Positions 2,945 through 20,916 of a stretch of 20,916 nucleotides of DNA are shown in pieces. This stretch comes from a virus: positions 1-20,916 of IMG/VR virus record IMGVR_UViG_3300031565_000467. One strand, 5' to 3'. The notes beneath the pieces are model-generated. The model did no database searches and was not told the DNA's origin. It saw only the letters and a list, made by a program, of their open reading frames with translations. How positions within the stretch are numbered: the stretch's first letter is position 1; every line of letters starts with the position of its first letter. Made by a program: the position numbers and the translations under genes.

Positions 2945-3373
2945 ATGAGTAAATCAGACGAGTTAGCAAAAGCGGCGCTTGACACAGTAATCAATTATTT
3001 TGGGTTAAAACTGGGAAGCAGAGAACAAAAGGAGGCTGAATCTTCAGCAAGCCATGCCATACGGGTATTGGCGCTTTCTAAAAGTATTGGGGAACTGAAA
3101 GAAGATTCCACGGACGAAGAGCCAGCGAGTGAGGATATCATTTGGGAGTGTCCCATTAGGATTTCGTTGTCCACCCAAAGTACCGAGGCAGAGGCTAAGG
3201 GTTTTTGGAAAATGGAGGTGGAGAATGGGCGGGTGAATTTTACGCGGTATAGCTCTGGACGCCCAACAGAGGCCTATGCGCCGGTGAACTTGGAAAAGGC
3301 AGTTGTCTATGCCGCTGCAATTATCGCAGGGTATGACCCGCCACGCAACTTGAAGTTTTCGGATAATAAATAG
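2945..3373 (+). CDS. Hypothetical protein, 142 aa
   Basis: Preceded by a strong Shine-Dalgarno (AAGGAG in 2933-2939) and ending in TAG. The N-terminal 50 residues look helical and amphipathic. They are followed by an acidic linker (STDEEPASED, about 55-64) and a C-terminal part that looks mixed alpha/beta (ECPIRISLS, WKMEVENGRVNFTRYSSG, VVYAAAIIAGYDPP). No cysteine knuckle, signal peptide or membrane segment is evident. I do not recognise the family. It starts after a 23-base gap, so translation here is independent of the upstream genes rather than coupled to them. Confidence 0.68.
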   Translation: MSKSDELAKAALDTVINYFGLKLGSREQKEAESSASHAIRVLALSKSIGELKEDSTDEEPASEDIIWECPIRISLSTQSTEAEAKGFWKMEVENGRVNFTRYSSGRPTEAYAPVNLEKAVVYAAAIIAGYDPPRNLKFSDNK

Positions 3374-3381
3374 GGGCGCTT

Positions 3382-3750
3382 ATGGGGTTTTCAAAGGAAT
3401 GCACTAAGTGCGGGCGGGTGAAGTGGTGGTATGAGTTTGATAGGGGTAAGAAAGGATGCAAATTTTCAATAGAATCACAATGCAGTAATTGTAGTAAGGC
3501 TTATCAGAAAAAAAGTCGCGAAAAAAATAAGGACAAACGCCGCCGCCGCTATGTGGAAAACAGGGATGAAATATTCGCCAGAATGAAGTGCTATCTCCAA
3601 AAAGAAATGGACGAGCTATCCGATAATTATGTAAAAAAATTGATATGTAGGCAATTTAGAATAAAACGAAAAGACATCACACAGAATTTAGTAATACTAA
3701 AACGACAACAACTTAAAATTTATAGGGCGCTAAGGGAGGCAAACAAATGA
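3382..3750 (+). CDS. Zinc-knuckle, HNH-recognition-like phage protein
   Basis: 122 residues. Two CxxC pairs at C7/C10 and C34/C37 flank a short aromatic stretch (WWYEFDRGKKG) and are followed by the very basic KKSREKNKDKRRRRY. This is the arrangement of the zinc-binding half of many phage HNH endonuclease-like proteins, but no HNH catalytic histidine cluster follows. The C-terminal half (DELSDNYVKKLI, then ILKRQQLKIYRALREA) resembles the tail of small phage DNA-binding proteins of this type, so it is probably a nucleic-acid-binding protein without nuclease activity. An AGGGG ribosome site overlaps the previous TAG stop. The end overlaps the next gene as ATGA. Confidence 0.68.
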   Translation: MGFSKECTKCGRVKWWYEFDRGKKGCKFSIESQCSNCSKAYQKKSREKNKDKRRRRYVENRDEIFARMKCYLQKEMDELSDNYVKKLICRQFRIKRKDITQNLVILKRQQLKIYRALREANK

Positions 3751-4142
3751 TATTCGATCAAGAAATACAAGAAATACACCGACAACGGCAGTTGTATAAT
3801 ATTGGAAAGATCACACATGAGCAGTTTATGGCAAACATGAGGGCGTTCGACCAGACCCACAAATGCATGTCCAATAAAATACAGGCCTATGCAGTAGCAA
3901 TCAAGGCGAATCGAACCATCAGGGGGCACATGGAGAGAGATACGCTAATTGCATGCGGGTCGATCCCTCAAATTAACAGTGAATCGCTTGAACTCGAAAT
4001 GATAAAATGTCCAGACCAGGGCGACAAGATGATCACAAGGGCTGAGTGTTTGGATTATTCGGGGGGGCATGAGTCGTGCCGGACATGCGAGGCCGACAAG
4101 ACAACCAAGAGGTTATTGCTTGGGGATGGAGGGGCGCAATGA
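3747..4142 (+). CDS. Small protein with C-terminal zinc-binding domain
   Basis: 131 residues, starting in an ATGA overlap with the preceding gene. The N-terminal half looks helical and hydrophilic. The C-terminal part contains a compact cysteine/histidine cluster: KCPDQGDKMITRAECLDYSG then HESCRTC, giving C88, C101, H108, C111 and C114. Similar 'CPD..k.ItraeCldy...C..C' domains occur in small phage and bacterial proteins of unknown role. They are presumably structural zinc sites. A run of seven G (4061-4067) lies inside the coding region and encodes part of SGGH. The stop overlaps the next start (ATGA, 4139-4142). Function unknown. Confidence 0.66.
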   Translation: MIFDQEIQEIHRQRQLYNIGKITHEQFMANMRAFDQTHKCMSNKIQAYAVAIKANRTIRGHMERDTLIACGSIPQINSESLELEMIKCPDQGDKMITRAECLDYSGGHESCRTCEADKTTKRLLLGDGGAQ

Positions 4143-4306
4143 AACGATATACTATGACATCATGGAAACATTCCTTCCCAGGGGGGGACACCTATGGACT
4201 TGATGTTAGGATGGATGAAGACCCGGATGGTGAATGGGTTAAACATGCTGACATTGTAGAAAGTTTAGAATGCCAAGAAACCAAAAGCACCCACCCACAA
4301 GAGTAA
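4139..4306 (+). CDS. Hypothetical protein, 55 aa
   Basis: Start in an ATGA overlap with the preceding stop. An in-frame upstream ATG at 4076 lies inside the previous gene and is rejected. The product (MKRYTMTSWKHSF, then DEDPDGEWVKHADIVESLE) has the look of the short phage proteins with a 'DP.GEWV...D...LE' ending that occur in accessory gene strings. No function can be given. A seven-G tract (4181-4187) lies in the coding region. The 3' end overlaps the HAD-like fragment at 4270, so this gene may itself run into rearranged sequence. Confidence 0.5.
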   Translation: MKRYTMTSWKHSFPGGDTYGLDVRMDEDPDGEWVKHADIVESLECQETKSTHPQE

Positions 4307-4386
4307 TAGCCGTTGATGTTGACGGCACAATAAAGAAATTTAAGGCTAAATATCGTGTCAAGCCAAATCTGTGTCAATATGCTTAA
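4270..4386 (+). pseudogene. Truncated HAD-superfamily hydrolase N terminus (38 aa remnant)
   Basis: A short frame from ATG 4270 to TAA 4384-4386 encodes PTRVIAVDVDGTIKKF. The hydrophobic beta strand followed by DVDGT is HAD motif I, whose first Asp is the nucleophile in phosphatases of this superfamily. Family members are normally at least about 130 aa, so the remaining motifs and the cap are missing. Directly after the motif the sequence changes to YRVKPNLCQYA and stops. The frame overlaps the end of the 55-aa gene upstream. The best reading is a gene fragment left by a deletion or recombination that fused it to the promoter-like spacer. A genuine micro-ORF is less likely. Confidence 0.5.
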
Positions 4387-4389
4387 AGT

Positions 4390-4419
4390 TTGACCTATAT
4401 GAGTTGCATTCTGTTTAAA
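4390..4419 (+). promoter_or_regulatory. Candidate sigma70-type promoter
   Basis: TTGACC (4390-4395), an 18-base AT-rich spacer and TTTAAA (4414-4419) fit a sigma70-like promoter with one mismatch in the -35 box and a weaker -10 box. Transcription would begin near 4426, just upstream of the stem-loop at 4436-4490. It lies in one of only two spacers longer than 100 bases. Support is by consensus only. Confidence 0.35.
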
Positions 4420-4435
4420 GTCTGCGCAACCCCCC

Positions 4436-4493: not shown

Positions 4494-4817
4494 ATGGCAA
4501 AATGTCAAGGAACCACTAAAAAAGGCCGATCCTGCAAAAGTTCTGCTATCGACGGTAGTTTATTCTGCGTTTCTCATCAAGACCTTACCCCCATCCAGCC
4601 AGTTTCCCCAGCTATCCAAACGACCGCACTTTCAGAAATTCAGACGACTACCATCACCGAGTCAGACGACCGGATGATGCGATACCGAAAGACTCCCCAA
4701 TGCCCCAACTGCGGCGCGCATCCGGTCGTTTGTTTAATGCGCCGCCAGGACTACGCCTCTTTTCGATGCCGTCAATGCAGCCACAGGTTTGAGATCGACC
4801 ACAGGGTGGAGGTTTAA
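4494..4817 (+). CDS. Two-domain zinc-binding protein (DUF5763-like N terminus plus zinc ribbon)
   Basis: 107 residues. The N-terminal C4-x-GTTKKGRSC14...FC25VSH28 pattern matches the small 'C.GtTkkG..Ck...g.yC..H' domain (DUF5763 type). A Thr/Ser/Pro-rich linker (31-58) leads to a C-terminal zinc ribbon with CPNC (70-73), C80 and CRQC (92-95), resembling the Cys4 ribbons of phage regulators such as Mu Com and P2 Ogr. Its GAGG ribosome site is buried in the 4436-4490 hairpin and a promoter-like sequence lies upstream, so it may be a separately controlled unit. It stops directly against the gpW start (TAA 4815-4817, ATG 4818). A nucleic-acid-binding regulator is the favoured role but is inference. 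Confidence 0.7.
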   Translation: MAKCQGTTKKGRSCKSSAIDGSLFCVSHQDLTPIQPVSPAIQTTALSEIQTTTITESDDRMMRYRKTPQCPNCGAHPVVCLMRRQDYASFRCRQCSHRFEIDHRVEV

Positions 4818-7692: not shown

Positions 7693-8535
7693 ATGGCCGC
7701 TACAAATAAAGATCCGTTTGTATATTCAAACAGAAAGGATGGCAAGCCCCATATGTTCAAAGGGTTGGTTCAGGCCGGGTCTACCCAGGCGATTAAGCGC
7801 GGGGAAATCTGCACCTGGAATGAAACCACCGGGTATTTTATCCCGATTGATGCCGTTGCCGATTTTCGCTACCCGTTGGCAATCGCCGCAGAGGAACAAA
7901 AAGCCAGCGGCAGGCATGAGCTTGTCGCGTCACGGTACATCGAATTTTATTCACTTCACCCGGAAGACGTTTTTGAATTTCCGATTGCAGCCGCCGCTGG
8001 CGTAGCGGTTGGAGATCCTTACACGTTGACCGCCACCACAACCCAAACACTCACCGCTGGAGCTGGTGCGTTTGCTGTAGCCATTGTTGTTGATGACAGC
8101 CACTATCCCCAAGAAGAGGACACGACCATCAGGAACCAGTCATATGCACGGTTTTCTTTCAATCCTGCTGTGTCTTATTGGGGTTTCAGGTTCAGTCAGT
8201 TGGTGAATCCGGGACGCAGGGTGCTTGCAGTCACCGCAACCGCAACCCTTCTCGAAGGGGATATGTATAACTCCCTGATTCTTATTTCGGGAACCACGAC
8301 CATTACCCTACCCGCAGTTAAACCGGGGATGGACGCGATTTTTGTCAATATCGATGGTGCGGATCAAAACATCAATCCAAATACTGCGGATGCGATCCGT
8401 CTGAATGGTGCAGTGCTGACTGCCGGTAATCAAATAGCTCAAACCACTATTGGATTTTCTGTCCAATTACTTACAGAAAGCGCGGATGGTTTTATCGCTT
8501 TGGGTACGACGTCTGCATGGACCGACGGCAGCTAA
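7693..8535 (+). CDS. Head decoration-like protein with extra C-terminal beta domain
   Basis: 280 aa, between the protease/scaffold and major capsid genes, where lambda gene D (110 aa, capsid-stabilising) lies. The N-terminal half (MFKGLVQAGSTQAIKRGEIC, about 21-40; then VGDPYTLTATTTQTL) is beta-rich and alanine-rich, with the 'k.GevL.....g.....' style of decoration proteins. The second half (about 180-280) adds a beta domain with TTTITLPAVKPGMDAIFVN and NPNTADAIRLNG, a pattern common in phage fibre and surface proteins, which would explain the length. Shine-Dalgarno AGGAGA precedes the ATG. Decoration by position and fold style is likely. The C-terminal domain may be surface exposed. Confidence 0.68.
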   Translation: MAATNKDPFVYSNRKDGKPHMFKGLVQAGSTQAIKRGEICTWNETTGYFIPIDAVADFRYPLAIAAEEQKASGRHELVASRYIEFYSLHPEDVFEFPIAAAAGVAVGDPYTLTATTTQTLTAGAGAFAVAIVVDDSHYPQEEDTTIRNQSYARFSFNPAVSYWGFRFSQLVNPGRRVLAVTATATLLEGDMYNSLILISGTTTITLPAVKPGMDAIFVNIDGADQNINPNTADAIRLNGAVLTAGNQIAQTTIGFSVQLLTESADGFIALGTTSAWTDGS

Positions 8536-8558
8536 TTTTAATTTGAACGGAGGATAAA

Positions 8559-9779
8559 ATGAAAACATTTATCAAAAGCAACCTTGTAAGAATTGGCCAC
8601 GGTCTGTCGATTGGCGATTTAAGAGCGTTGGCCCAGCATGAGCCCGAGAATTTTGTTCACAAGATTCAGCAGGGCGCAGACGACGGGCATTTGAAACTCG
8701 AAAATCTGAAAGACCTTCGATCTTTGTACCATGGCCTTGCAGATGTTGAGGTCCCGGTGCTTATGACCATGCCCGGTGGCATTCAAAGGTCTGTCACGAC
8801 TTCAGCCTTTCCAATTCTGACCGGGACGGCGACCATCGCCCAGGTCAACGATGCTTATCAAGCCGTTGAAACCGTGGGGCAGGATCTTTGCACCGATTTC
8901 GACGATAACAAAAAAGTTACAACCATGGTTTCAGTTAATACCATGGATAGCCAGGTTGATGAGGTCAAGGAAAAGGGTGACTTTCCTGAAATCGGAGTCG
9001 ATGAAGAGAAGGTAGAAATCCGGCACAGAAAGAACGGGCGGAAAATCACCTTTTCCCTTGAGTCGATTCTTGAAAACGACCTCCCTGATATTGTCGCCAG
9101 AACCAACGCTCTGGGAGAAATTGCGGCTGAATGGATCGAAGAGCAGACCCTCAAACGAGTAACGGATTATGATGGTTCACAGACCACACCCGCCGAGCCT
9201 TATGTTTATCGACCGGCTGGAACCGGGACTGCGCTTTTTTCTGCAACGGCCAACACGCCCGGAACCCGAGCGCCTTCAGGAAACCGAATCAATACCAATC
9301 CCTTTGTTGATGAAACCGACCTGGAAAACTGTCGGGTACGCATGGGAACCATGCTCAATTCCAGGGGCAAAAGAATAATGATTCCGAGATCCCTGGTTCA
9401 GATTCTTTGCCCGGATGCGATTGTCGGAACGGTTATGAAGGTTCTCAATTCTGAGTATGTACCCGGTGTCGAGAATGAAAAATCCAACTGGGGTCCTGCT
9501 GGAAAATGGAACATTCCTGCGGAGCGTGTGGTTTCAACCACAAAACTGGACGATCTATCCGCTGCTACCTGGTATTACGGCGCGTTCAAAAAGCAGTTCA
9601 AGCGTAAGTGGAAGATGCGATTTGAATACGTGACCCTGGGAGAGAACACCCAGGCGTATCTCAATAGTCAGATTGCTTTTCAGGCTCGCTTGGCATGGGA
9701 CGTGGAAATCGGTGCTGTTGATTATGTTTATGTAATTCAGAACTTGAGCGCCACCACTTCACCCGCTGACGGCGGATAA
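8559..9779 (+). CDS. Major capsid protein (HK97 fold, E-family-like)
   Basis: 406 aa, directly after the decoration-like gene and preceded by a strong ribosome site (ACGGAGG, 10 bases from the ATG). Features fit large capsid subunits: a helical N-terminal arm (about 1-65), then TTSAFPILTGTATIAQVNDAY (about 81-101), a long E-loop-like charged stretch (DEVKEKGDFPEIGVDEEKVE), a spine-helix-like segment (LGEIAAEWIEEQTLKRV, about 185-205), and a C-terminal domain with KRIMIPRSLVQILCPDAIVG and a P-loop-like WYYGAFKKQFKRKW. These subunits build the icosahedral shell. Gene order and length support the call. The exact family would need a profile search. Confidence 0.85.
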   Translation: MKTFIKSNLVRIGHGLSIGDLRALAQHEPENFVHKIQQGADDGHLKLENLKDLRSLYHGLADVEVPVLMTMPGGIQRSVTTSAFPILTGTATIAQVNDAYQAVETVGQDLCTDFDDNKKVTTMVSVNTMDSQVDEVKEKGDFPEIGVDEEKVEIRHRKNGRKITFSLESILENDLPDIVARTNALGEIAAEWIEEQTLKRVTDYDGSQTTPAEPYVYRPAGTGTALFSATANTPGTRAPSGNRINTNPFVDETDLENCRVRMGTMLNSRGKRIMIPRSLVQILCPDAIVGTVMKVLNSEYVPGVENEKSNWGPAGKWNIPAERVVSTTKLDDLSAATWYYGAFKKQFKRKWKMRFEYVTLGENTQAYLNSQIAFQARLAWDVEIGAVDYVYVIQNLSATTSPADGG

Positions 9780-9796: not shown

Positions 9797-11212
9797 ATGA
9801 AACGCTTTAAATTTATTTTGATTCCCTTGCTGATTATGGCCTTTGTTTCGACATCGGTTTGGGCAGGGACTGCACAGCGTATGAAGTACGGTGTCCGTTT
9901 TGAAGATGAGGGTGCCGACCATAGCACACCGCCCAGCGGTTATCTCGATCTATTTGTCAATACTGACAAGCTCTATATTATTGACGATTCCGGCACGAAA
10001 ACCGATGTGCTGGCAACGTCCAGTGCGACTGCATGGGATAACCTTGCTGTTCCGGACGCCAACGAAACCCTTGATATGACGACCTATACCACAACGTGGG
10101 ACTTTGGCGGCACCGCTGATATGTTTTCGATGCAGTTCACCGCAGCCTTTGGTGACGTGACGGGACTTCTTTTAGAACAGAAGACCGGGAACCCGACAGA
10201 CGGAACCATTTTTGAAATCAAACTGGCGGATACGGACCCGGACTTTCTATCTTTTTCTACGGCGGGAACCGAAGTGGTCAACGTCGATTCGTCCGGGAAT
10301 GTCACTCTTGCAAGTGGATCGGCTTCAGCTATTACAAAAGTGGCTGATGGTGCGGCAGATGATTTTACTTTAAGTTTAACCGGCGCTAAAGACTCAAGCC
10401 TTGTCTTGAGTTCCACGGGTACGGCTGCGGACGCTATGACTCTCAGCACATCGGCGGGCGGTATTGATATAACTGTTGCTGGATCTGTTGCGGGTGAAGA
10501 CTTAGACCTTACAAGTGCGTCTTCTATCAATTTGGTTGCGACGGAAGCGGTTGGAGATCAAATCAAAATCGATGGGCAAGGGACTGTCGCCGGCAACGCT
10601 ATCAATTTAGAGACGACCGATGGCGGAATTATTATCAATGCGGTAGGGGGGTCAAATGGTGACCTTACTTTGCAATCTGGTGATGACATGAGCCTTACTG
10701 CAACCGGAACGGTCGCTATTGATTCGGCTGATTGGGACATTTCGGCAAGTGGAGCAGTCACCAATATTGCAAGCCTTGGGTTCGATTCGTCGACCATTAT
10801 CTACCATGACACTATTGAATTAACCAATGCACAGATAAAAGACCTAGCAGACACGCCTATTACTCTGGTGGCTACTCCCGGTGCCAATAAGTTTCTTGAG
10901 TTTGTTTCTGCTGTTTTGATTCTTGACTACGGTACAAATGTGCTTTCCGAGGATGCGGATAATTTAGTTATTGAGTATGCCACAAGCGGCGCAGACGTAA
11001 CCGGCACGATTGAAATGACCGGATTTATCGATCAGGCCGTAGACCAGATGGCGCTTATCAACCCCGTTGGTATTGCTACGGATGCGGCCAGCGATATCGT
11101 TAATAATGGCCTACGATTATTTAATCCCAATGACGACTTTGCGGGCAATGCCGGTGGAGATACCACAATGACGGTCAAGATTGCCTACAGAATACACGCT
11201 GCGGGGCTATAA
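9797..11212 (+). CDS. Beta-rich repetitive protein with Sec signal peptide, head region
   Basis: 471 aa. The first 23 residues form a classical signal peptide: MKRFKF, a hydrophobic core (ILIPLLIMAF) and a VWA cleavage site before GTAQ. The body is low in charge and rich in Ala, Thr, Ser, Gly and Asp. It shows loosely repeated beta-strand units (SGNVTLASGSA, GGIDITVAGSVAGEDLDLTSA, GGIIINAVGGSNGDLTLQSG, DDMSLTATGTVAIDSA). The C-terminal part (about 335-471), with NAQIKDLADTPITLVATPG and GDTTMTVKIAYRI, resembles a domain of phage virion surface proteins. A good ribosome site (ACGGAGG) is present. Position between capsid and connector genes implies a virion protein, yet the leader implies export. 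The conflict is unresolved. Confidence 0.75.
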   Translation: MKRFKFILIPLLIMAFVSTSVWAGTAQRMKYGVRFEDEGADHSTPPSGYLDLFVNTDKLYIIDDSGTKTDVLATSSATAWDNLAVPDANETLDMTTYTTTWDFGGTADMFSMQFTAAFGDVTGLLLEQKTGNPTDGTIFEIKLADTDPDFLSFSTAGTEVVNVDSSGNVTLASGSASAITKVADGAADDFTLSLTGAKDSSLVLSSTGTAADAMTLSTSAGGIDITVAGSVAGEDLDLTSASSINLVATEAVGDQIKIDGQGTVAGNAINLETTDGGIIINAVGGSNGDLTLQSGDDMSLTATGTVAIDSADWDISASGAVTNIASLGFDSSTIIYHDTIELTNAQIKDLADTPITLVATPGANKFLEFVSAVLILDYGTNVLSEDADNLVIEYATSGADVTGTIEMTGFIDQAVDQMALINPVGIATDAASDIVNNGLRLFNPNDDFAGNAGGDTTMTVKIAYRIHAAGL

Positions 11213-13355: not shown

Positions 13356-14249
13356 ATGGCAAGTCCAACCTCTCCAACCCATGGAAAACTGGCAGCTATC
13401 TATCGGCTTAGACCTAACGGGTTTTCCGGGAGCGGACTTAACGACGTTACGTGGGGAACCGGGGCGACAAACGCAGCGACATCTTATTATGAAGTCGTAA
13501 TAGACGCCGCCGATGTACCCGATACTTTCAAGTGGCGAAAGAACGGCGGGGCCTGGACCGAGACTGTTTCTATTACGGGTTCGGCCCAGACCCTTGATGA
13601 AGCCCAAACGATCCTATTCGCGGCGACCACGGGTCATACCTTAGCCGATCAATGGATGATTGGAAACCTCAAGGATGAGGCTACGACTGAATCAGCGGCA
13701 ACCGCCCAAATTACTACGGCTGCAAAGCGACTCCTGAACCCCAACGCAACCCCGACCTTTACCGATACCGGCAGTGAAACTGTTTTGATTGTGGATCATG
13801 TCCGGGGTCAAGCCACGTTCACCGGCAATGTTACGGTGGTCGATGTGGACGGCAATAACGGATACATCGAGGCTTCCGCTTTGGAAAAGGTCGGATATCT
13901 ATTGGGGTGGAGTTTTGACGTTTCCCTCGACATGGCAGATCAAAGCTATTGTGGGCAACAGTGGAAACTCGCCCTCCCAGGTCAGGGGAGTGGGTCCGGA
14001 AGCGCACAGGCGTTTTTTATCGGCACGGCTTCCTTCTTTGAGTCGATGAAAGATTGTGTGGACGGCACACAAGACTATTTTCTTTTACAGTTGTTTAATT
14101 ACGACCCGGATGCCGATCAAACCGGGGATCATTTTACCGTATGGGTTACATTCACGGGATTTTCTATAAACCCATCCGTTGGGGAAGTTGTGAAGGAATC
14201 GGTGCAATTCCAGATGCTTGGAGCACCTTCATTTACGTCAAACGCATAA
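13356..14249 (+). CDS. Tail tube protein (copy 2) with extra N-terminal domain
   Basis: 297 aa, about twice the length of copy 1. Residues about 172-297 repeat the copy 1 pattern: VGYLLGWSFDVSLDMADQS and WKLALPGQGSGSGS align with its MGYTQGWSIDVSLDMGDMS and WKEALPGQAGWSGS. The first 170 residues are an added module. A segment at about 44-100 (YYEVVID, DTFKWRKNGGAWTE, ITGSAQTL, TTGHTLADQWMI) matches a beta-sandwich-like pattern found in many phage tail proteins and may decorate the outside of the tube. A strong AAGGGGGG ribosome site precedes it. Whether copy 1 or 2 is the main tube subunit cannot be told from sequence. Confidence 0.75.
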   Translation: MASPTSPTHGKLAAIYRLRPNGFSGSGLNDVTWGTGATNAATSYYEVVIDAADVPDTFKWRKNGGAWTETVSITGSAQTLDEAQTILFAATTGHTLADQWMIGNLKDEATTESAATAQITTAAKRLLNPNATPTFTDTGSETVLIVDHVRGQATFTGNVTVVDVDGNNGYIEASALEKVGYLLGWSFDVSLDMADQSYCGQQWKLALPGQGSGSGSAQAFFIGTASFFESMKDCVDGTQDYFLLQLFNYDPDADQTGDHFTVWVTFTGFSINPSVGEVVKESVQFQMLGAPSFTSNA

Positions 14250-14266
14250 CTTAAAAGGGGAGCAAA

Positions 14267-14644
14267 ATGGCAAAGTTAAAAATTGATTGGTCAGATTTAA
14301 GTATGGATGCGAAGTGGTACGATTTTGAAAACGGGGATGTTGTCGAGGGAGAACCCAAGGGGGACGGAACATATTTTAAAATCCGTCCGTATCCCACCGA
14401 GCTTGCCGGCGCGATAATTAAGGACGGCGGGTTTCTCATGTCCGGAGAACAGCGGAAGAAAATTCATGATCATTGCCTTGTTAGTTGGAAAGGATTGGTC
14501 GATGCAAACAACAAAGACATTCCCTTCAGCGAAGACACGAAGGAAAAAATATTCAAGTACTCTCTCGGGGGGATATCCGCTTTCGTGTTCAACCGAAGCA
14601 CAGCTTTTGGCGACAAGAAAAAGGCGCAGGAAAAAAACTCATAA
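14267..14644 (+). CDS. Tail assembly chaperone, gpG-like (0-frame product)
   Basis: 125 aa between tail tube and tape measure genes, as lambda gpG. Shine-Dalgarno AGGGGAG precedes the ATG. The sequence begins with WSDLSMDAKWYDFENGD and has a beta/alpha body (TYFKIRPYPTELAGA) and a Lys-rich C-terminal end (GDKKKAQEKNS). In lambda-type phages this protein, together with a frameshifted longer form, binds the tape measure protein and recruits tube subunits. The last codons contain an A AAA AAC slippery heptamer in the correct phase, which makes the pair recognisable. Confidence 0.8.
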   Translation: MAKLKIDWSDLSMDAKWYDFENGDVVEGEPKGDGTYFKIRPYPTELAGAIIKDGGFLMSGEQRKKIHDHCLVSWKGLVDANNKDIPFSEDTKEKIFKYSLGGISAFVFNRSTAFGDKKKAQEKNS

Positions 14645-15003
14645 AATGGGCGGAGTGGTTTTTTTCGCCCACAAAGATGGAGTGTTCTTTTTGTGTCCGA
14701 CTACAGAAAGACGGATTCCCAGGGAGCGAGGGGTTAAACTGCAAAGGAATTGAGTATGTCGATGAGTGCCATAGGCCGGGTGGTAAAGCTCAAAAACTTT
14801 CGGGACAAAACCGAAAACTCCTGGACTTGTTTGGTCGGATGAACATTGTCGGCCCGGAAGTCGTTTTCAAAACCTATCGCGTACCAATCGGGCAACGGCC
14901 CATAATTTTGGACAGATACATAGGGTTGCTTTCTGCCATTAAGCGCATACGAGAAAAAAGTAATGACCACAAAGCTAAAAATAGACCTGCTCGTAGACGA
15001 TAA
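14267..15003 (+). CDS. Tail assembly chaperone long form, gpGT-like, by -1 frameshift
   Basis: Read as 14267-14638 then 14638-15003: the ribosome slips one base back on A AAA AAC (14632-14638) and continues through LIKWAEWFFSPTK to TAA 15001-15003, giving about 245 aa. The extension has its own possible metal-binding cysteines (MECSFC, then GLNC and DEC) and a helical, basic end. It overlaps the tape measure start by 41 bases. Without the shift it has no convincing start: ATG 14677 lacks a ribosome site. Shift efficiency is unknown. A separate small gene translated on its own is the alternative. Confidence 0.75.
14632..14638 (+). promoter_or_regulatory. -1 ribosomal frameshift slippery heptamer A AAA AAC
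   Basis: In the gpG-like frame the codons are GAA AAA AAC TCA TAA, so positions 14632-14638 read X XXY YYZ exactly. The 0-frame stop is 14642-14644, two codons later. The -1 frame is open for a further 121 codons into the tape measure start. Confidence 0.85.
14647..14671 (+). promoter_or_regulatory. Candidate frameshift-stimulating hairpin
   Basis: TGGGCG (14647-14652) pairs with CGCCCA (14666-14671) around a 13-base T-rich loop. The stem begins 8 bases after the slippery heptamer, in the spacing range of known stimulatory structures. It is short but G/C-rich in an A/T-rich context. Confidence 0.6.
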
Positions 15004-18000
15004 AGGCACGGCAGTTGTCACAAATTTTGGCACAAAGGCAGAGAGTGCTTTTAAGTTAGCTGCAAAAGGGGCTTTGGTGTTTGGCGCTGCGTTTGCCGGC
15101 ATATCAGTGGGGGTAGCAAAAGTACTAAACGAGTTCCAACCCTTTGAAACCGCCCTTGTTGATATGGGCAAGGTGACAGGCCGCAGTCTCGAAGAAATCC
15201 GTGCTGAAATAATGGCCCTCCCTCCTGAACTTGGAAGCGCCACCCAATTAATGCAGGGGTACTATCAGGTTATTTCCGCTGGCGTAACCGACCCCGTAAA
15301 AGCTTTGGAAATGCTCACGACTTCGGCCATGGCTGGAAAGGCCGCACACGTCGATCAAGCCGAAGTCGTCAAAGGGCTCACAAAGGTTATGGCCGGCTAC
15401 GAGGGGGAAGTCCGTTCCGCCGCAGACGCCGCAGACCTTTTATTTGCCATTGAACGTGTTGGTCAAACGACTGTTGCTGAACTCGTTCCACATATTGGCG
15501 GACTCGCAAAGGCATCTCACGATTTAGGTATCAGTCAAGACGAACTCGGGGGATCATTCGCACAGGTCACACAGCTTGCCGGGAACTCCGACGAAGCGGC
15601 CACGCTTTACATGCGAACCCTTACCTCTCTAATGAAGCCCTCCAAGGCCATGAATGAAGCCTTGAAGTCTATGGGATACGAGAGCGCGCAGGCTGCGATA
15701 AAAAGCATCGGGTTTACTGAGACTCTAAAGCAATTAAGCGCCACGGCTGGCGGCTCTCAGGTCAAGATGGCGGCTCTTTTTGGAAACATCCGGGCCATAC
15801 GGGGTGTTGCTGCTCTATCCGTGGGCGACTTCAAGGGCATGGCGGATAAAATAGAAGACATGGGGAACAAAACCGGCTCCATGGACAAAGCCTTTCGGGA
15901 GTGGATGGTAACTCTTGAGGCTTCAAAAGAGGCGTTTAGAAATACCATTGGGAAGGTTTTAATCGATATAGGTGAGGAAATAGCACCTACTGTTATTGCT
16001 GCTATGAAAAGCATCGGTGATGTCATCATTGAAAACAAAGACAATCTTGTCATTCTCGCAAAGGCGAGCGTAATAACGCTTGAGGGTATAATTGATCTTT
16101 GTAATGCAGTAGTCGGTGCGTTTTTCACTATGGCCGATGCGATCCTGTTGACTATCGGCATATTTAAAGAGTGGGCCAGCAATGTCGTAAATGCCATAGA
16201 AGACGTTGCGAACGCTCTCCCGGATGCAGTTACAGAAGCAGACCTATTCACCGAATCGGCGAACAACGCTTCTGCTGGCCTTGATGGAATGCTGAAGAGT
16301 GCCCACGGTGCAAGCAAGGAAATTGGGTTGATTGCGACGCACACCATAAAGGCCAATGCTGCCATTAAGGGATATGCCGATGTGTCCGGTCTTGCAGCGG
16401 CGCAACAAAAAGACCTTGGGACGGTGACCAATAAAACCAAAGAAGAAATCAAGGCGGAAGCGAAAGAAATAAAAGCGGCGAAGGAATACGTTGAAAAATT
16501 AGCCCTATCATTTGGCAAACTTTCCAAGAGCGTAAAAGAAGAAGCCATGCTTGAAAGAAAGCATATGGATTTGACCGCTGCTGATTACGCCAAACATAAC
16601 GAAGCAATGGTGAAGTTCAGGGAGAATCGATCCGAAAAGATAAAGAAGATAACAGCCGAAGAAACGCAAGCGATAAACTCGCTTTATGAAATGCTTGGGG
16701 GTAGCCTAAGACGAACCGATGAAAGTTATTTCGAGTTCAAGAAAAAGATGCTCGACGATGAGAAGCAAAGATACATCGACCTGTTTGGAGAAACCGCCCT
16801 TATTAATGAAGCCTTTGCCCAGAGATACATCGAGCTTGAGCATGAAAAAATGCGGGCGAGTGACGATTTCTTTGCCGGGGTCAAGGCCGGACTCTACGAC
16901 ATTACCCAGGACACGATCACATGGGGCGATGTTGGGTATGAGACGATTAGAACGTTTAATGATTCCGGGACCGCTGCCCTGACTGATTTCTTCAATTTTA
17001 CAGGTGATGGGTTTTTAGATTTGGGCGAACTCGCAGGCAGTGTTTTTGATAACATGGTTGAGATGTGGTCTGAGATGTTGGCTAAATTCATTATGCGTTG
17101 GGCGTCGGCAGGCTTAGAAAAATTAATTGGAGGCATAGGCGATCTGTTGGGGATTCCTTCCCTCGGTGATTTGCTCGGTCTTGGCGGGGCGGCAGCCGGC
17201 GGAGCGGCGGGAGCCGGGGCAGCGGCGGCTGGAGGTGCGGGAGCGGGAGCACTAACGAGTTTTGGATTTACTGCGGCAGAAACCGAAGCGGCCCTTGCGG
17301 GTGGTGGTGCGGTGGCGGCACCGACCGGAGCGGCGGCAACCGGAACAGCGGCGGCAGGGTCGAGTACTGCCGCAGGGTTGGCGGCGGCGGCACCATACAT
17401 GGCGTTGGCGTTGGCCGTACCATTATTAGGCCCGACTATCACAGCAACAATGGCCCCAATAATGCGCGATCTATTTGGCAGTAATCCCACATCCCCATCA
17501 GCCGGAGCCTATGTTTCAGCATGGGAGCAAGGGTTGTCAACATTCAGGGTAGAGGGGCTTGACCAAGATTTTGCCGTACCCGCCGACATTGCCCCACTCA
17601 AGGAACTTTTCAACGATTGGTTTCTTAATAATTTGGTTTGGGGAACAGACATTGCGCCCGCTGGGGACACCCTACCAAATTGGGCAAAGGACAATGAATA
17701 TTTAAATTCTTTTATGAGCGACAATATGTTGCTTGCCGATTATATCCAAAATATGCAGGACTTAAAATCTTCAACCGCAGCAAGCTATTGGGCGGCAGAA
17801 GCGGCGGCAGGCGCTCACGCTACGGGCGGGCCATTATTGGCGAATGAAATGTTTTTATCCGGCAGAGGGCCGTTAGGTGAAAGTGCTTTCTGGGGTGGCG
17901 TTGGCGAAGGTGTTGTCAATAACGATGCTGGCATGAACACCCTTGCTGAAATTAATAACGGCACACTCGTTGATAGGCTTGTCAATGCGGTTAACTCTGC

Positions 18001-18136
18001 GAGCGGGGGGAGCGACAGACCGATATACTTATCACAAAAAATCGTAATTGATGGCCATGAAATTGTCAATGTGGTTACGAAATACGGGCCGGGAGATCCG
18101 GGATATAGAGATTCAATTCAAGAGATAGCAAATTAA
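14963..18136 (+). CDS. Tail tape measure protein
   Basis: 1057 aa, the longest gene, directly after the G/GT chaperones. The tape measure sets tail length and exits with the DNA at infection. Visible parts: a hydrophobic segment near the N terminus (ALVFGAAFAGISVGVAKVL, about 37-55), a TP901-type tape domain (about 60-330, with AETALVDMGKV-like and MLTTSAMAGKAAHVDQAEVVKG motifs), hydrophobic stretches at about 360-405, a Lys/Glu-rich coiled-coil-like part (about 490-620), an extreme Gly/Ala-rich tract (about 740-812) ending in a hydrophobic segment (PYMALALAVPLLGPTITATM), and a C-terminal domain with ATGGPLLANEMFLSGRGPLGE. The start overlaps the GT frame and has only a weak purine-rich ribosome site. 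Confidence 0.93.
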   Translation: MTTKLKIDLLVDDKGTAVVTNFGTKAESAFKLAAKGALVFGAAFAGISVGVAKVLNEFQPFETALVDMGKVTGRSLEEIRAEIMALPPELGSATQLMQGYYQVISAGVTDPVKALEMLTTSAMAGKAAHVDQAEVVKGLTKVMAGYEGEVRSAADAADLLFAIERVGQTTVAELVPHIGGLAKASHDLGISQDELGGSFAQVTQLAGNSDEAATLYMRTLTSLMKPSKAMNEALKSMGYESAQAAIKSIGFTETLKQLSATAGGSQVKMAALFGNIRAIRGVAALSVGDFKGMADKIEDMGNKTGSMDKAFREWMVTLEASKEAFRNTIGKVLIDIGEEIAPTVIAAMKSIGDVIIENKDNLVILAKASVITLEGIIDLCNAVVGAFFTMADAILLTIGIFKEWASNVVNAIEDVANALPDAVTEADLFTESANNASAGLDGMLKSAHGASKEIGLIATHTIKANAAIKGYADVSGLAAAQQKDLGTVTNKTKEEIKAEAKEIKAAKEYVEKLALSFGKLSKSVKEEAMLERKHMDLTAADYAKHNEAMVKFRENRSEKIKKITAEETQAINSLYEMLGGSLRRTDESYFEFKKKMLDDEKQRYIDLFGETALINEAFAQRYIELEHEKMRASDDFFAGVKAGLYDITQDTITWGDVGYETIRTFNDSGTAALTDFFNFTGDGFLDLGELAGSVFDNMVEMWSEMLAKFIMRWASAGLEKLIGGIGDLLGIPSLGDLLGLGGAAAGGAAGAGAAAAGGAGAGALTSFGFTAAETEAALAGGGAVAAPTGAAATGTAAAGSSTAAGLAAAAPYMALALAVPLLGPTITATMAPIMRDLFGSNPTSPSAGAYVSAWEQGLSTFRVEGLDQDFAVPADIAPLKELFNDWFLNNLVWGTDIAPAGDTLPNWAKDNEYLNSFMSDNMLLADYIQNMQDLKSSTAASYWAAEAAAGAHATGGPLLANEMFLSGRGPLGESAFWGGVGEGVVNNDAGMNTLAEINNGTLVDRLVNAVNSASGGSDRPIYLSQKIVIDGHEIVNVVTKYGPGDPGYRDSIQEIAN

Positions 18137-18146
18137 AGGGGGAAGT

Positions 18147-18590
18147 ATGAGACAGATATTTTTAACGCTTTTGATTTTATTTTTTACAGTTGCTTCGGCT
18201 TTGGCGGACGGAACGGCTCCGCAAGTATCAACGGTTCTTTCAAGGGACATGCTTCAAATCACCTTTACCGTCACCGGTGACGCTTCAACCGGGGCCATAT
18301 CCGACCAGGACACGACAGACGGCAGAATAATCGGGATGTATCTCTATCGGGTAATCGTTGAAAACGATTCCGGCGATACCAGCGTCACCGACAATTCAGA
18401 CGTTTATATTCTGGACGCCGGGGGAACTGATCTTCTAAACGGCAAGGGTGTTGATCAACTCGACGACGATACAAGAAATTACATCAGACCATGCAGACAC
18501 GACCCCATCACCGGAGCATTGACGTTGGATGTAAATAGTCAGGCAACCGCCTCCGGGGTTTACATCGTGACTCTAATCTTTGCGAAATAA
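18147..18590 (+). CDS. Small Sec-leader protein after the tape measure gene
   Basis: 147 aa with a clear signal peptide: MRQ, a hydrophobic core (IFLTLLILFFTVAS) and a cleavage motif ALA before DGTAP (cut after residue 20). No lipobox is present. The mature part is beta-rich and acidic (VLSRDMLQITFTVTGDAST, MYLYRVIVENDSGDTSVTDN), ends with the strand SGVYIVTLIFA, and contains a 'NYIRPCRH' loop. A GGGGGAAG ribosome site precedes the ATG. I do not recognise a family, although the two-layer beta pattern resembles virion surface or adhesin-like domains. It is the first of three consecutive leader-bearing genes. Confidence 0.75.
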   Translation: MRQIFLTLLILFFTVASALADGTAPQVSTVLSRDMLQITFTVTGDASTGAISDQDTTDGRIIGMYLYRVIVENDSGDTSVTDNSDVYILDAGGTDLLNGKGVDQLDDDTRNYIRPCRHDPITGALTLDVNSQATASGVYIVTLIFAK

Positions 18591-18600
18591 GAGGTTTAAA

Positions 18601-19464
18601 ATGAAAAACAAATTAACTTCCCTTATAATTTTCTCGCTCTTGATCTTCCCGATTTCGGCGCTGGCTTTTGTGCCGTGCGATGTTTGCGTTGATGATAGCG
18701 CCTATAATGCAACGACCTGGAATGGAAACGATTGCGTTCCCACCATGGACGCCGTGAGAGACAAGATCGAAACCGTATCAGCGGCGGCGGCTCCGGTGGG
18801 TGCAAAGTATATTGTTCAAACCGCTGATGGGACTTTGAGCGCCGAACAGGCATTGGGCGCATTGGCAAGCGGTATTGTTTACAACACGACCACCACGGGC
18901 GCTTTGTCGATTGCGACACAAGGGACGGATTACTATAAACCCGGCGGCACAGACGTTGCTGATGTTGACGTAGTGGATGCTTTAACCATAAGCGGCGGCA
19001 CAATAGACGGCACACCGATAGGCGGCACGACCTCTGCGATTGCTCAAACAAGAGTCAAACGATTATATCCTGCAATCTTATCAGATACGACAAGCCCTCA
19101 TCAGCTTACGATCCAAGAATGCTCCAATACCCTAATCACTACCCAGGGTTGGAACGGCACGGATGATATTCAATTCGGGTTGCCCGATATTTCGGCTTAT
19201 GACGGCTCAGAGGGCGTTCTTGTAGTGCGGTTCAAGGACACGATTGGTATGCAAGATGCTGACACAGACTTTTATATTGATCCTGACGCATCGACCCAGA
19301 TCGATCTTGACGGAACGCTTACGGGAACTGATGGGGATCGGATCTGGTACGATAATATCACGATACGCACTTCCATAGTCTGCTCATCTGATTATAGCGT
19401 TGTGCTTGGCGGGTTTTGGAGCTGTTATCAAATCGTAGGCGTAGCTGCCGATAAGGGGTCATGA
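18601..19464 (+). CDS. Fibre-like protein with Sec signal peptide
   Basis: 287 aa from ATG 18601. An upstream in-frame ATG at 18580 lies inside the previous gene, whereas 18601 has an AAGAGG site. Residues 1-22 form a signal peptide (MKNKL, core IIFSLLIFPI, cleavage at ALA). The mature N terminus is Cys-rich (FVPCDVCVDD, then NDC). The middle (about 75-145) has the phage tail-fibre pattern YIVQTADGTLSAEQALGALA, then TTTTGALSIATQGTDYYKPG and LTISGGTIDGTPIGG. The C-terminal domain is beta-rich with two more cysteines (IVCSSDY, FWSCY). It looks like a short fibre or adhesin. The leader and cysteine pairs would suit the periplasm, which is odd for a virion protein. Confidence 0.72.
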   Translation: MKNKLTSLIIFSLLIFPISALAFVPCDVCVDDSAYNATTWNGNDCVPTMDAVRDKIETVSAAAAPVGAKYIVQTADGTLSAEQALGALASGIVYNTTTTGALSIATQGTDYYKPGGTDVADVDVVDALTISGGTIDGTPIGGTTSAIAQTRVKRLYPAILSDTTSPHQLTIQECSNTLITTQGWNGTDDIQFGLPDISAYDGSEGVLVVRFKDTIGMQDADTDFYIDPDASTQIDLDGTLTGTDGDRIWYDNITIRTSIVCSSDYSVVLGGFWSCYQIVGVAADKGS

Positions 19465-19745
19465 TGAAAAAACGATTACTCATATTTTTAACGCTGTTGC
19501 TGATCCCCACCCTTGCCTTTGGTCTTGTCTGGAAAGAAGACGAAACCAGCTACACCTCCGTCCGTGGTTCCTTCGTGGACGGGCAGGCTTGGCTTGACGG
19601 AATCATCCCAACTGCTTTGCCGAATAACATCACCGGAATAACAAAAGCGAATCCCGGCGTGGTGTCTTCGACGGCTCATGGCTTAGAAGTTGGCGACTTG
19701 GTTTACTTCGACACCCTGACGGAAATGACGGAGCTAAACTGGTAA
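19461..19745 (+). CDS. Sec-leader protein, 5' part of an interrupted gene
   Basis: 94 aa from two adjacent ATG codons: 19461 overlaps the previous stop, while 19464 is better spaced from GGGG (19455-19458). The leader is MKKR plus a core (LLIFLTLLLIPT) ending LAFG, and the mature part begins LVWKEDETSY. The segment TKANPGVVSSTAHGLEVGD then YFDTLTEMTELN is the first half of a small beta domain common in phage proteins ('vtt.aHGLs.GD.vy..g..GMteLNg...tV'). A TAA (19743-19745) cuts the domain in the middle. The same frame then stays open and completes it, so this is probably the N-terminal part of a longer gene. Confidence 0.62.
   Translation: MMKKRLLIFLTLLLIPTLAFGLVWKEDETSYTSVRGSFVDGQAWLDGIIPTALPNNITGITKANPGVVSSTAHGLEVGDLVYFDTLTEMTELNW
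19743..19745 (+). other. In-frame TAA inside an otherwise continuous reading frame
   Basis: Reading from 19461, the codons around the stop are TGG TAA GTC AGG. The frame continues without a stop to 20735 and the residues after the stop (VRAVTVKDSADAFSI) complete the domain begun before it. One C-to-T change (CAA, Gln, to TAA) would explain it. Sequencing error, a nonsense mutation, or suppressed or read-through translation are the options. Confidence 0.6.
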
Positions 19746-19847
19746 GTCAGGGCGGTCACGGTTAAAGATAGTGCCGATGCCTTTTCAATAAGCACAACTG
19801 CGGCTTATGTTGCGGCTGAAACCACAGGCGGGGCTTGCGGTCATTCT

Positions 19848-20735
19848 GTGGTGTCTCTTTCAACTCAATTCGCAGGCACCGGCTACAGGGTAGTTTTAGA
19901 TGCTGGCGACGGCAGTAAGGCAATCGGCTATGCTGGTCCAGAGGCAACGATTGAAACGCTTGGCACCAACCTGTTCGACCAGGACGGCGGTGGTGGTAGC
20001 GGCGACAAGGGTGCTTTTACCCTTGCTGACCTCAGACTCGCCGAGCTTTCTTCTGGAACTCTCACCGTTGGCAAGATGTACGAGATCAGCGCACAGAGTT
20101 TACTTGATTTCACCGCTGATGGCGCACCCAATAGCACCGTGGGAACAACCTTTATTGCGACAGGGACGAGTTTAACCCTGACCGCTGCTGACAAGGTTTA
20201 TCCGGTTGACATAAGCTGGGTTGTATACGGTACGAACACGATGGAGATTGATAGCGGGGCGTTGAAGATTAGTTATGTGGATAATGCGAGTGGGGCAAAG
20301 TTAACATTAAGAGATGCCGCTTCGGATTTTAGTGCTGACCTTGAAGTCGGAAAGCAGTACAAAATAACAGGAAATGCCAAGGTTGGAGCAACTGATTCAG
20401 TAGCGTTAAGACTTTACAGTGGAGCGGCTCCGTATTCATTCAGCTCTGTTACAATTACATCCACATCATTTGTACCATTTGAACTTTATTTAACAGCAGA
20501 TAGCACCACAGCCTGTGCTTTTCGTTCAGCAGAAATGGCCGCAGGCGAAGAAATCTGGCTCGACAACCTAAAACTCTACGAAGTCACAGAACCCAACGCA
20601 TCGGCAGTTCATATCTACAAGCAGAGAGGACTCGTCAATGAGGGGTGGTATTCGAATGCGCTGACGGATTTGAACGCAGGGACGAGCTTTGATTTTAATG
20701 TGTATAAAGAAGGCGGCGGGGCTGCGCTTTGGTAG
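19848..20735 (+). CDS. 3' part of the interrupted gene: beta-rich, carbohydrate-binding-module-like protein
   Basis: The same frame as 19461-19745 continues from 19746. The first plausible initiator after the stop is GTG 19848 (295 aa), without a convincing ribosome site. The sequence resembles fibre or adhesin parts: GGGGSGDKGAFTLADLRLAE linker, then two beta domains. The second (about 140-250) has YKITGNAKVGATDSVALRLY, TSTSFVPFELYLTADST and EEIWLDNLKLYEV, the pattern of jelly-roll carbohydrate-binding modules. The C terminus has YKQRGLVNEGWYSNALTDL. If joined to the leader part, the full protein would be about 424 residues. Binding to host surface glycans is inference. Confidence 0.62.
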   Translation: MVSLSTQFAGTGYRVVLDAGDGSKAIGYAGPEATIETLGTNLFDQDGGGGSGDKGAFTLADLRLAELSSGTLTVGKMYEISAQSLLDFTADGAPNSTVGTTFIATGTSLTLTAADKVYPVDISWVVYGTNTMEIDSGALKISYVDNASGAKLTLRDAASDFSADLEVGKQYKITGNAKVGATDSVALRLYSGAAPYSFSSVTITSTSFVPFELYLTADSTTACAFRSAEMAAGEEIWLDNLKLYEVTEPNASAVHIYKQRGLVNEGWYSNALTDLNAGTSFDFNVYKEGGGAALW

Positions 20736-20744
20736 GGAGATAAA

Positions 20745-20916
20745 ATGGCCGCAGTTGAAATCTACGACTACCTATCAACAGTAACCGCCGACAACGATGT
20801 AACATTGAGTGTTGACCCTTCGGGCGTGGTGACGGAGATGGGATCTTTTAACGACAAGATCCTCAAGGGTGACGATGGCTCCGAAGAACGTGTGCGGATC
20901 GGTTCGGATACGCCGG
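20745..20916 (+). CDS. Tail protein, N-terminal part (3' truncated by window edge)
   Basis: ATG 20745 follows GGGAG (20735-20739) directly after the TAG stop of the previous gene, and the frame is open to the window end (57 residues). The sequence begins MAAVEIYDYLSTVTADNDVT and continues with VVTEMGSFNDKILKGDDGSE. No signal peptide is present, unlike the three genes before it. Position after the tape measure and leader genes suggests a distal tail or tip component. The family cannot be assigned from this fragment. Confidence 0.6.
   Translation, partial: MAAVEIYDYLSTVTADNDVTLSVDPSGVVTEMGSFNDKILKGDDGSEERVRIGSDTP

Follow-up and report, generated by a model that had tools for sequence, protein, structure and literature searches.

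Introduction

As far as is known, the virions of tailed phages are put together inside the cytoplasm, where their fibres and other appendages are made without a signal peptide. Phage-fibre-like proteins with a signal peptide are described in Bdellovibrio, where the trimeric proteins of the MAT superfamily work outside the cytoplasm and have a conserved beta domain of ~130 aa after the leader and, in 13 of 21 members, an S74 chaperone/protease end (PMC10769870). For diversity-generating retroelements (DGR), a survey found the phage-encoded target proteins to be without signal peptides (PMC6199706), while cellular DGR targets do bear them (PMC8144416). The literature searched, of which coverage was partial, held no description of leaders on the virion genes of tailed phages.

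Here we analysed a window of 20,916 nucleotides, which is the whole of IMG/VR record IMGVR_UViG_3300031565_000467, a fragment from an uncultured metagenome. It contains a structural module from terminase to tail, with the capsid gene at 8559 and the tape measure gene at 14963, in which four genes begin with a Sec-type leader. The analysis suggests that several outer tail and head parts of this phage and its relatives carry export signals and would be sent across the inner membrane before use.

Methods

For the contigs, both genes and leaders were called with our own scripts, and genes are named by their start positions, preceded outside the window by a locus handle. Two IMG/VR queries led to relatives, the capsid sequence on its own and an alignment of two tape-measure sequences; with 18147, 18601 or the tape measure as a single-sequence query, none were returned. 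As a control, 45 genes of E. coli K-12 were scanned with the strict leader rule, which matched just two membrane proteins, AcrZ and YbhI, and with a looser rule, which additionally matched the lipoprotein YbhC; the periplasmic ModA was missed and no soluble enzyme was matched. An N-terminal anchor and a leader that is cleaved look alike to the leader rule.

Results

Four leader genes in the late operon of the window

In the leaders of 9797, 18147, 18601 and 19461, a basic n-region is followed by a hydrophobic core free of charged residues and by an AxA/AxG-type site, and purine-rich ribosome sites lie upstream of all four genes (Table 1). All four belong to the late structural operon, beside the tape measure or the capsid gene, and 18147, 18601 and 19461 stand side by side between the tape measure gene and the gene at 20745, which is by our own reading a distal tail gene and for which a family match was sought and none found. 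The central observation of the initial annotation, three adjacent Sec-leader genes after the tape measure and four in the late operon when 9797 is included, was confirmed by the open reading frames, the leaders and the ribosome sites.

Under the strict rule these four genes were the only matches among the 30 called ORFs of the window. When the relatives were included with the window, the rule matched 35 of 942 called ORFs. We counted 23 of these matches as fibre-type or head/tail surface genes, and the background outside the fibre-type class in related phage contigs was ~1.3% of genes, which gives P ~6e-4 for 4 of 30 window ORFs and ~6e-5 for three adjacent ones; the P figures are a guide only, because the split between fibre-type and other genes was set by us after the matches were known.

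A lipobox is absent from all four leaders, unlike the small superinfection-exclusion lipoproteins of the T5 Llp and Cor type, and no defence or exclusion family was matched. The window contains no Rfam family and no tRNA, and no reverse transcriptase was seen among its ORFs, the record stopping at 20916. Between terminase and portal, at 3382-4142 and 4494-4817, it encodes small Cys-rich proteins (4.6-7.5% Cys) of zinc-finger-like appearance.

Table 1. Leader genes, their predicted leaders and neighbouring landmarks in the window
Feature	Position	Strand	Description
Head-module leader gene (9797)	9797..11212	+	471 aa; low-complexity beta repeats after the leader, and a jelly-roll/TNF-like domain at the C terminus
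Sec leader of gene 9797	9797..9865	+	MKRFKFILIPLLIMAFVSTSVWA, then GTA
Tape measure protein (landmark)	14963..18136	+	1057 aa; phrog_23013 3e-30, PF10145 4e-18
Leader gene 1 (18147)	18147..18590	+	small beta protein of 147 aa; leader present on the L044 and L029 homologues, absent from those of MetMV and L039
Sec leader 1	18147..18206	+	MRQIFLTLLILFFTVASALA, then D
Leader gene 2 (18601)	18601..19464	+	287 aa with six Cys and segments that look fibre-like; searches gave no homologue
Sec leader 2	18601..18666	+	MKNKLTSLIIFSLLIFPISALA, then F
Leader gene 3 (19461) as it stands	19461..19745	+	94 aa; leader and E1_FCCH-like start, closed by in-frame TAA
Sec leader 3	19461..19523	+	MMKKRLLIFLTLLLIPTLAFG, then L
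In-frame TAA interrupting gene 3	19743..19745	+	
Open frame continuing gene 3 past the TAA	19746..20735	+	329 codons; next stop is TAG at 20733-20735
Next gene (20745), truncated by record end	20745..20916	+	resembles a tail protein by our own reading

Properties of the four products

The structure model of the 18147 protein (pLDDT 72) had as its best PDB match the capsid chain 7eel_H of cyanophage Pam1 (E 7e-4, TM 0.42), a weak fold match. We take this Pam1 chain to have a decoration-type role.

The second gene had been described as having Cys-rich segments suited to periplasmic disulphides and fibre-like repeats. Its Cys residues lie at positions 26, 29, 45, 174, 261 and 275, three of them close to the mature N terminus; the fibre-like repeats gave a weak database match (phrog_34130, E 0.001).

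The third gene had been read as one ORF up to 20735 with a carbohydrate-binding-like end. However, an in-frame TAA closes the gene early (Table 1), and the C-terminal part has no match in Pfam, in PHROGs at E<0.01 or among PDB sequences, which leaves a carbohydrate-binding function unsupported. The N-terminal part gave weak matches to E1_FCCH and to the tail family phrog_584 (2e-4). Stop reassignment of this TAA was rejected and its recoding is unlikely, because TAA is the main stop in this genome (16 of 25 genes); judged from one record, it may be either a genuine nonsense mutation or a mistake of the assembly. A full-length homologue was found for neither 18601 nor 19461.

Relatives of the 9797 protein occur at 22 IMG/VR loci, chiefly via its C-terminal domain, and leaders are present on some of them (L002, L003, L004, L005, L006, L011 and L023) and absent from others. 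Its family profile matched PDB chain 9eg4 'orf16' (E 1e-8), and a fold search with its model gave generic jelly-roll matches only, mainly to virus capsids. L007 was considered as a leaderless homologue and rejected, as its contig ends overlap and the true start, L081:11658, has a leader. Directly 3' of the 9797-type fibre gene, a small coiled-coil-like leader gene of 86-88 aa was observed in three contigs (L003:10524, L004:5405 and L006:10442).

Leader genes in related phage contigs

The closest relatives, L025/L044 and L026/L043, have a capsid 80% identical to that of the window. Both lack a leader gene immediately 3' of the tape measure, and in L043/L044 a leader-bearing 18147 homologue (168 bits) is positioned after the distal tail genes. 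In L044, where the four leader genes lie within 13478-16023, the three that come after it encode 270, 149 and at least 272 aa, and the L043 copy of the contig stops sooner, inside the leader cluster. Thus the leader of 18147, whose loss in homologues would have spoken against the initial annotation, is retained in the two closest relatives, where the 18147 homologue heads a run of four leader genes at a place other than directly after the tape measure. Between 18147 and its closest-relative homologue, the leaders are identical at 8/21 positions (38%) and the mature parts at 78/126 (62%). The fourth leader gene of L044 is a member of tail protein family phrog_5302 (E 5e-45). L044:14759, also leader-bearing, is a possible fibre-assembly partner, since comparing the two sequences gave a weak match (E 7e-6) with gp73 of EBPR siphovirus 2, itself weakly fibre-related. 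The 7693-type (cement-like) gene, present in one copy in the window, is tandemly duplicated in the closest relatives (L026:8258-9975).

In the head modules of other related contigs, a leader gene lies just 3' of the capsid gene in L028, L029, L031, L034/L037 and L062, the capsid of L062 being our own reading. In L028, L029, L031 and L034 a GTVSxKPYGVSTPYWYG-like mature start follows immediately after the cleavage site, and the leaders are 27-58% identical compared with 57-78% over the first 60 mature residues. The post-capsid leader genes of L029 and L062 match fibre family phrog_38058, and that of L029 is followed by an 18147 homologue with a leader. No leader was present on any inspected gene for terminase, portal, capsid or tape measure. 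Flags on the tape-measure genes of L044 and L062 were inner starts in the loose scan only, and vanished under the strict rule. The head module of L034 also has a gene with a lipoprotein-type leader (8169-8630) near a gene that reads as peptidase-like (8627-9031), and the former may be part of a lysis cassette.

A scan of genome contigs with the capsid alignment gave one match, in a Nitrospiria MAG, and the 296 Nitrospirota genomes searched yielded that same contig and no other. No host is called, because only this one Nitrospiria genome contig matched.

Leaders on recognised tail proteins

Contig G006 (L007, L080 and L081), from an unrelated phage, is podovirus-like, 43 kb long with overlapping ends, and has leader-like starts on at least five genes of its structural region. 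Three of its leaders, called by eye, with less typical -1/-3 residues and unflagged by the scripts, precede proteins of known families. In L080:4815 the leader is followed by a T7 tail-fibre N domain (phrog_1640, 3.7e-16; PF03906, 7.6e-5, under Pfam's cut-off), a beta helix and, at the C terminus, a stretch resembling the 9797 domain by our own reading, and the mature start aligns with the start of the leaderless fibre of HTVC028P. In L007:6309 the protein behind the leader is a podoviral tail protein in full length (phrog_376, E 2.5e-195, match from residue 22); Pelagibacter relatives among the matches listed, annotated as tail tubular B, were matched only from residue 23, and the sole one inspected, HTVC203P, has no leader. 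In L081:7249 the leader stands before a phrog_8510 virion protein. Matches to fibre or tail families are weak for the window genes (phrog_584, E1_FCCH and phrog_34130) and strong for leader genes in other contigs, both related and unrelated.

Counterparts without leaders

In Methanosarcina virus MetMV (AZF89954.1 and AZF89919.1; also in IMG/VR locus L039), an 18147-like small beta protein is followed side by side by a phrog_5302 tail protein, the homologue of the fourth leader gene of L044, but neither protein of the pair has a leader. Likewise, gp74 and gp73 of EBPR siphovirus 2 are homologues of L044 leader genes 2 and 3 in the same order (the gp73 match is weak), but are without leaders. 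The T7-type fibre of Pelagibacter phage HTVC028P has its N-terminal attachment domain in common with L080:4815, but begins directly with this domain. The matched tail proteins of Polaribacter Freya_1, crAss-like cr55_1 and Synechococcus S-EIVl have no leaders. Cys is more frequent in some leader-bearing versions (12 in 737 residues of the L080 fibre, 2 of them within the leader, versus 3 in 760 of HTVC028P; 5 in 270 of L044:13934 versus 1 in 388 of gp74), but not in all, since 9797 has none.

Downstream of the MetMV-like tail protein of L039 lies a gene that we read as reverse-transcriptase-like (3337-4434), which suggests a DGR targeting the family of the L044 leader protein. An annotated reverse transcriptase is present in crAss-like cr55_1.

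Discussion

The leader pattern in the window and its relatives is well supported, and apart from the correction of the third gene and the reinterpretation below, the original observation is largely right. What we replace is the proposal of a separate adhesin or envelope-modifying cargo, because several phages unrelated to one another have leaders in front of recognised tail and fibre proteins, and members of these families are leaderless in MetMV, EBPR siphovirus 2 and Pelagibacter phages. Our preferred reading, to which we give roughly even chances, is that virion appendage genes of fibre and decoration type have been prefixed with a cleavable Sec leader, and that their products would be exported, fold in the periplasm and join the virion at lysis. 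It is favoured because the gene types that bear leaders are parts added last or outermost (fibres, decoration-like proteins and a terminal tail protein), and because Cys is enriched in some versions.

Late in infection, these products would be exported via the host Sec machinery and the leader removed; folding and trimerisation would then follow in the periplasm, along with disulphide formation where this is possible. Particles from the cytoplasm would meet these last-added parts once the inner membrane fails at lysis and be completed there, which is the less certain step. Since the putative fibre-assembly partner L044:14759 also bears a leader, fibre maturation itself may take place in the periplasm. 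We know of no precedent among tailed phages for a cytoplasmic particle and a periplasmic part meeting at lysis.

Alternatively, the leader-bearing proteins could be purposely secreted and never enter the virion, serving as adhesins, receptor decoys or superinfection blockers derived from fibre domains. The Bdellovibrio MAT adhesins use signal peptides on phage-fibre-like proteins in this way (PMC10769870), and the leader genes are clustered and vary between relatives, as would be expected of adhesins. However, leaders also stand on the full-length phrog_376 protein and on a fibre of T7 type that includes the tail-attachment domain, and a decoy role is not obvious for either. No defence family was matched, and no leaderless duplicate was noticed on reading the contigs, several of which are incomplete. 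We consider secretion of this kind rather unlikely.

It is less probable still that the hydrophobic N termini are uncleaved anchors, holding the parts at the inner membrane, where tails would then assemble, or placed within the particle. Anchors would satisfy the leader rule, but would not need the small -3/-1 residues that recur just before conserved mature starts, and the leaders diverge faster than the mature parts, as signal peptides do. Chance hydrophobic starts or wrong start codons without any export are very improbable: one of the four window leader genes is broken and the sequence comes from an uncultured metagenome fragment, but three adjacent strong leaders with ribosome sites are not expected at the background rate (~6e-5), and leaders recur in independent contigs.

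Extended beyond this locus, the preferred reading of exported appendages would mean that widespread uncultured tailed phages have virions built in two compartments, with capsid, connector and tube made in the cytoplasm, and fibres and outer parts exported by Sec and added periplasmically at lysis; we regard this generalisation as doubtful but conceivable. If the leaders work on tail and fibre proteins, either some virion assembly is extracytoplasmic or virion parts become secreted agents, both of which are open to direct testing, and any annotation practice that takes a leader as a sign of host origin would need correcting.

Among known systems, the Bdellovibrio MAT proteins have in common with the leader genes here a signal peptide on a phage-fibre-like protein. 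They differ in being encoded by bacterial chromosome genes that serve predation, and Pfam detected no S74 domain in the window proteins. Since the same families occur leaderless in MetMV, EBPR siphovirus 2 and the Pelagibacter phages, the leader appears here as an addition to normal virion genes.
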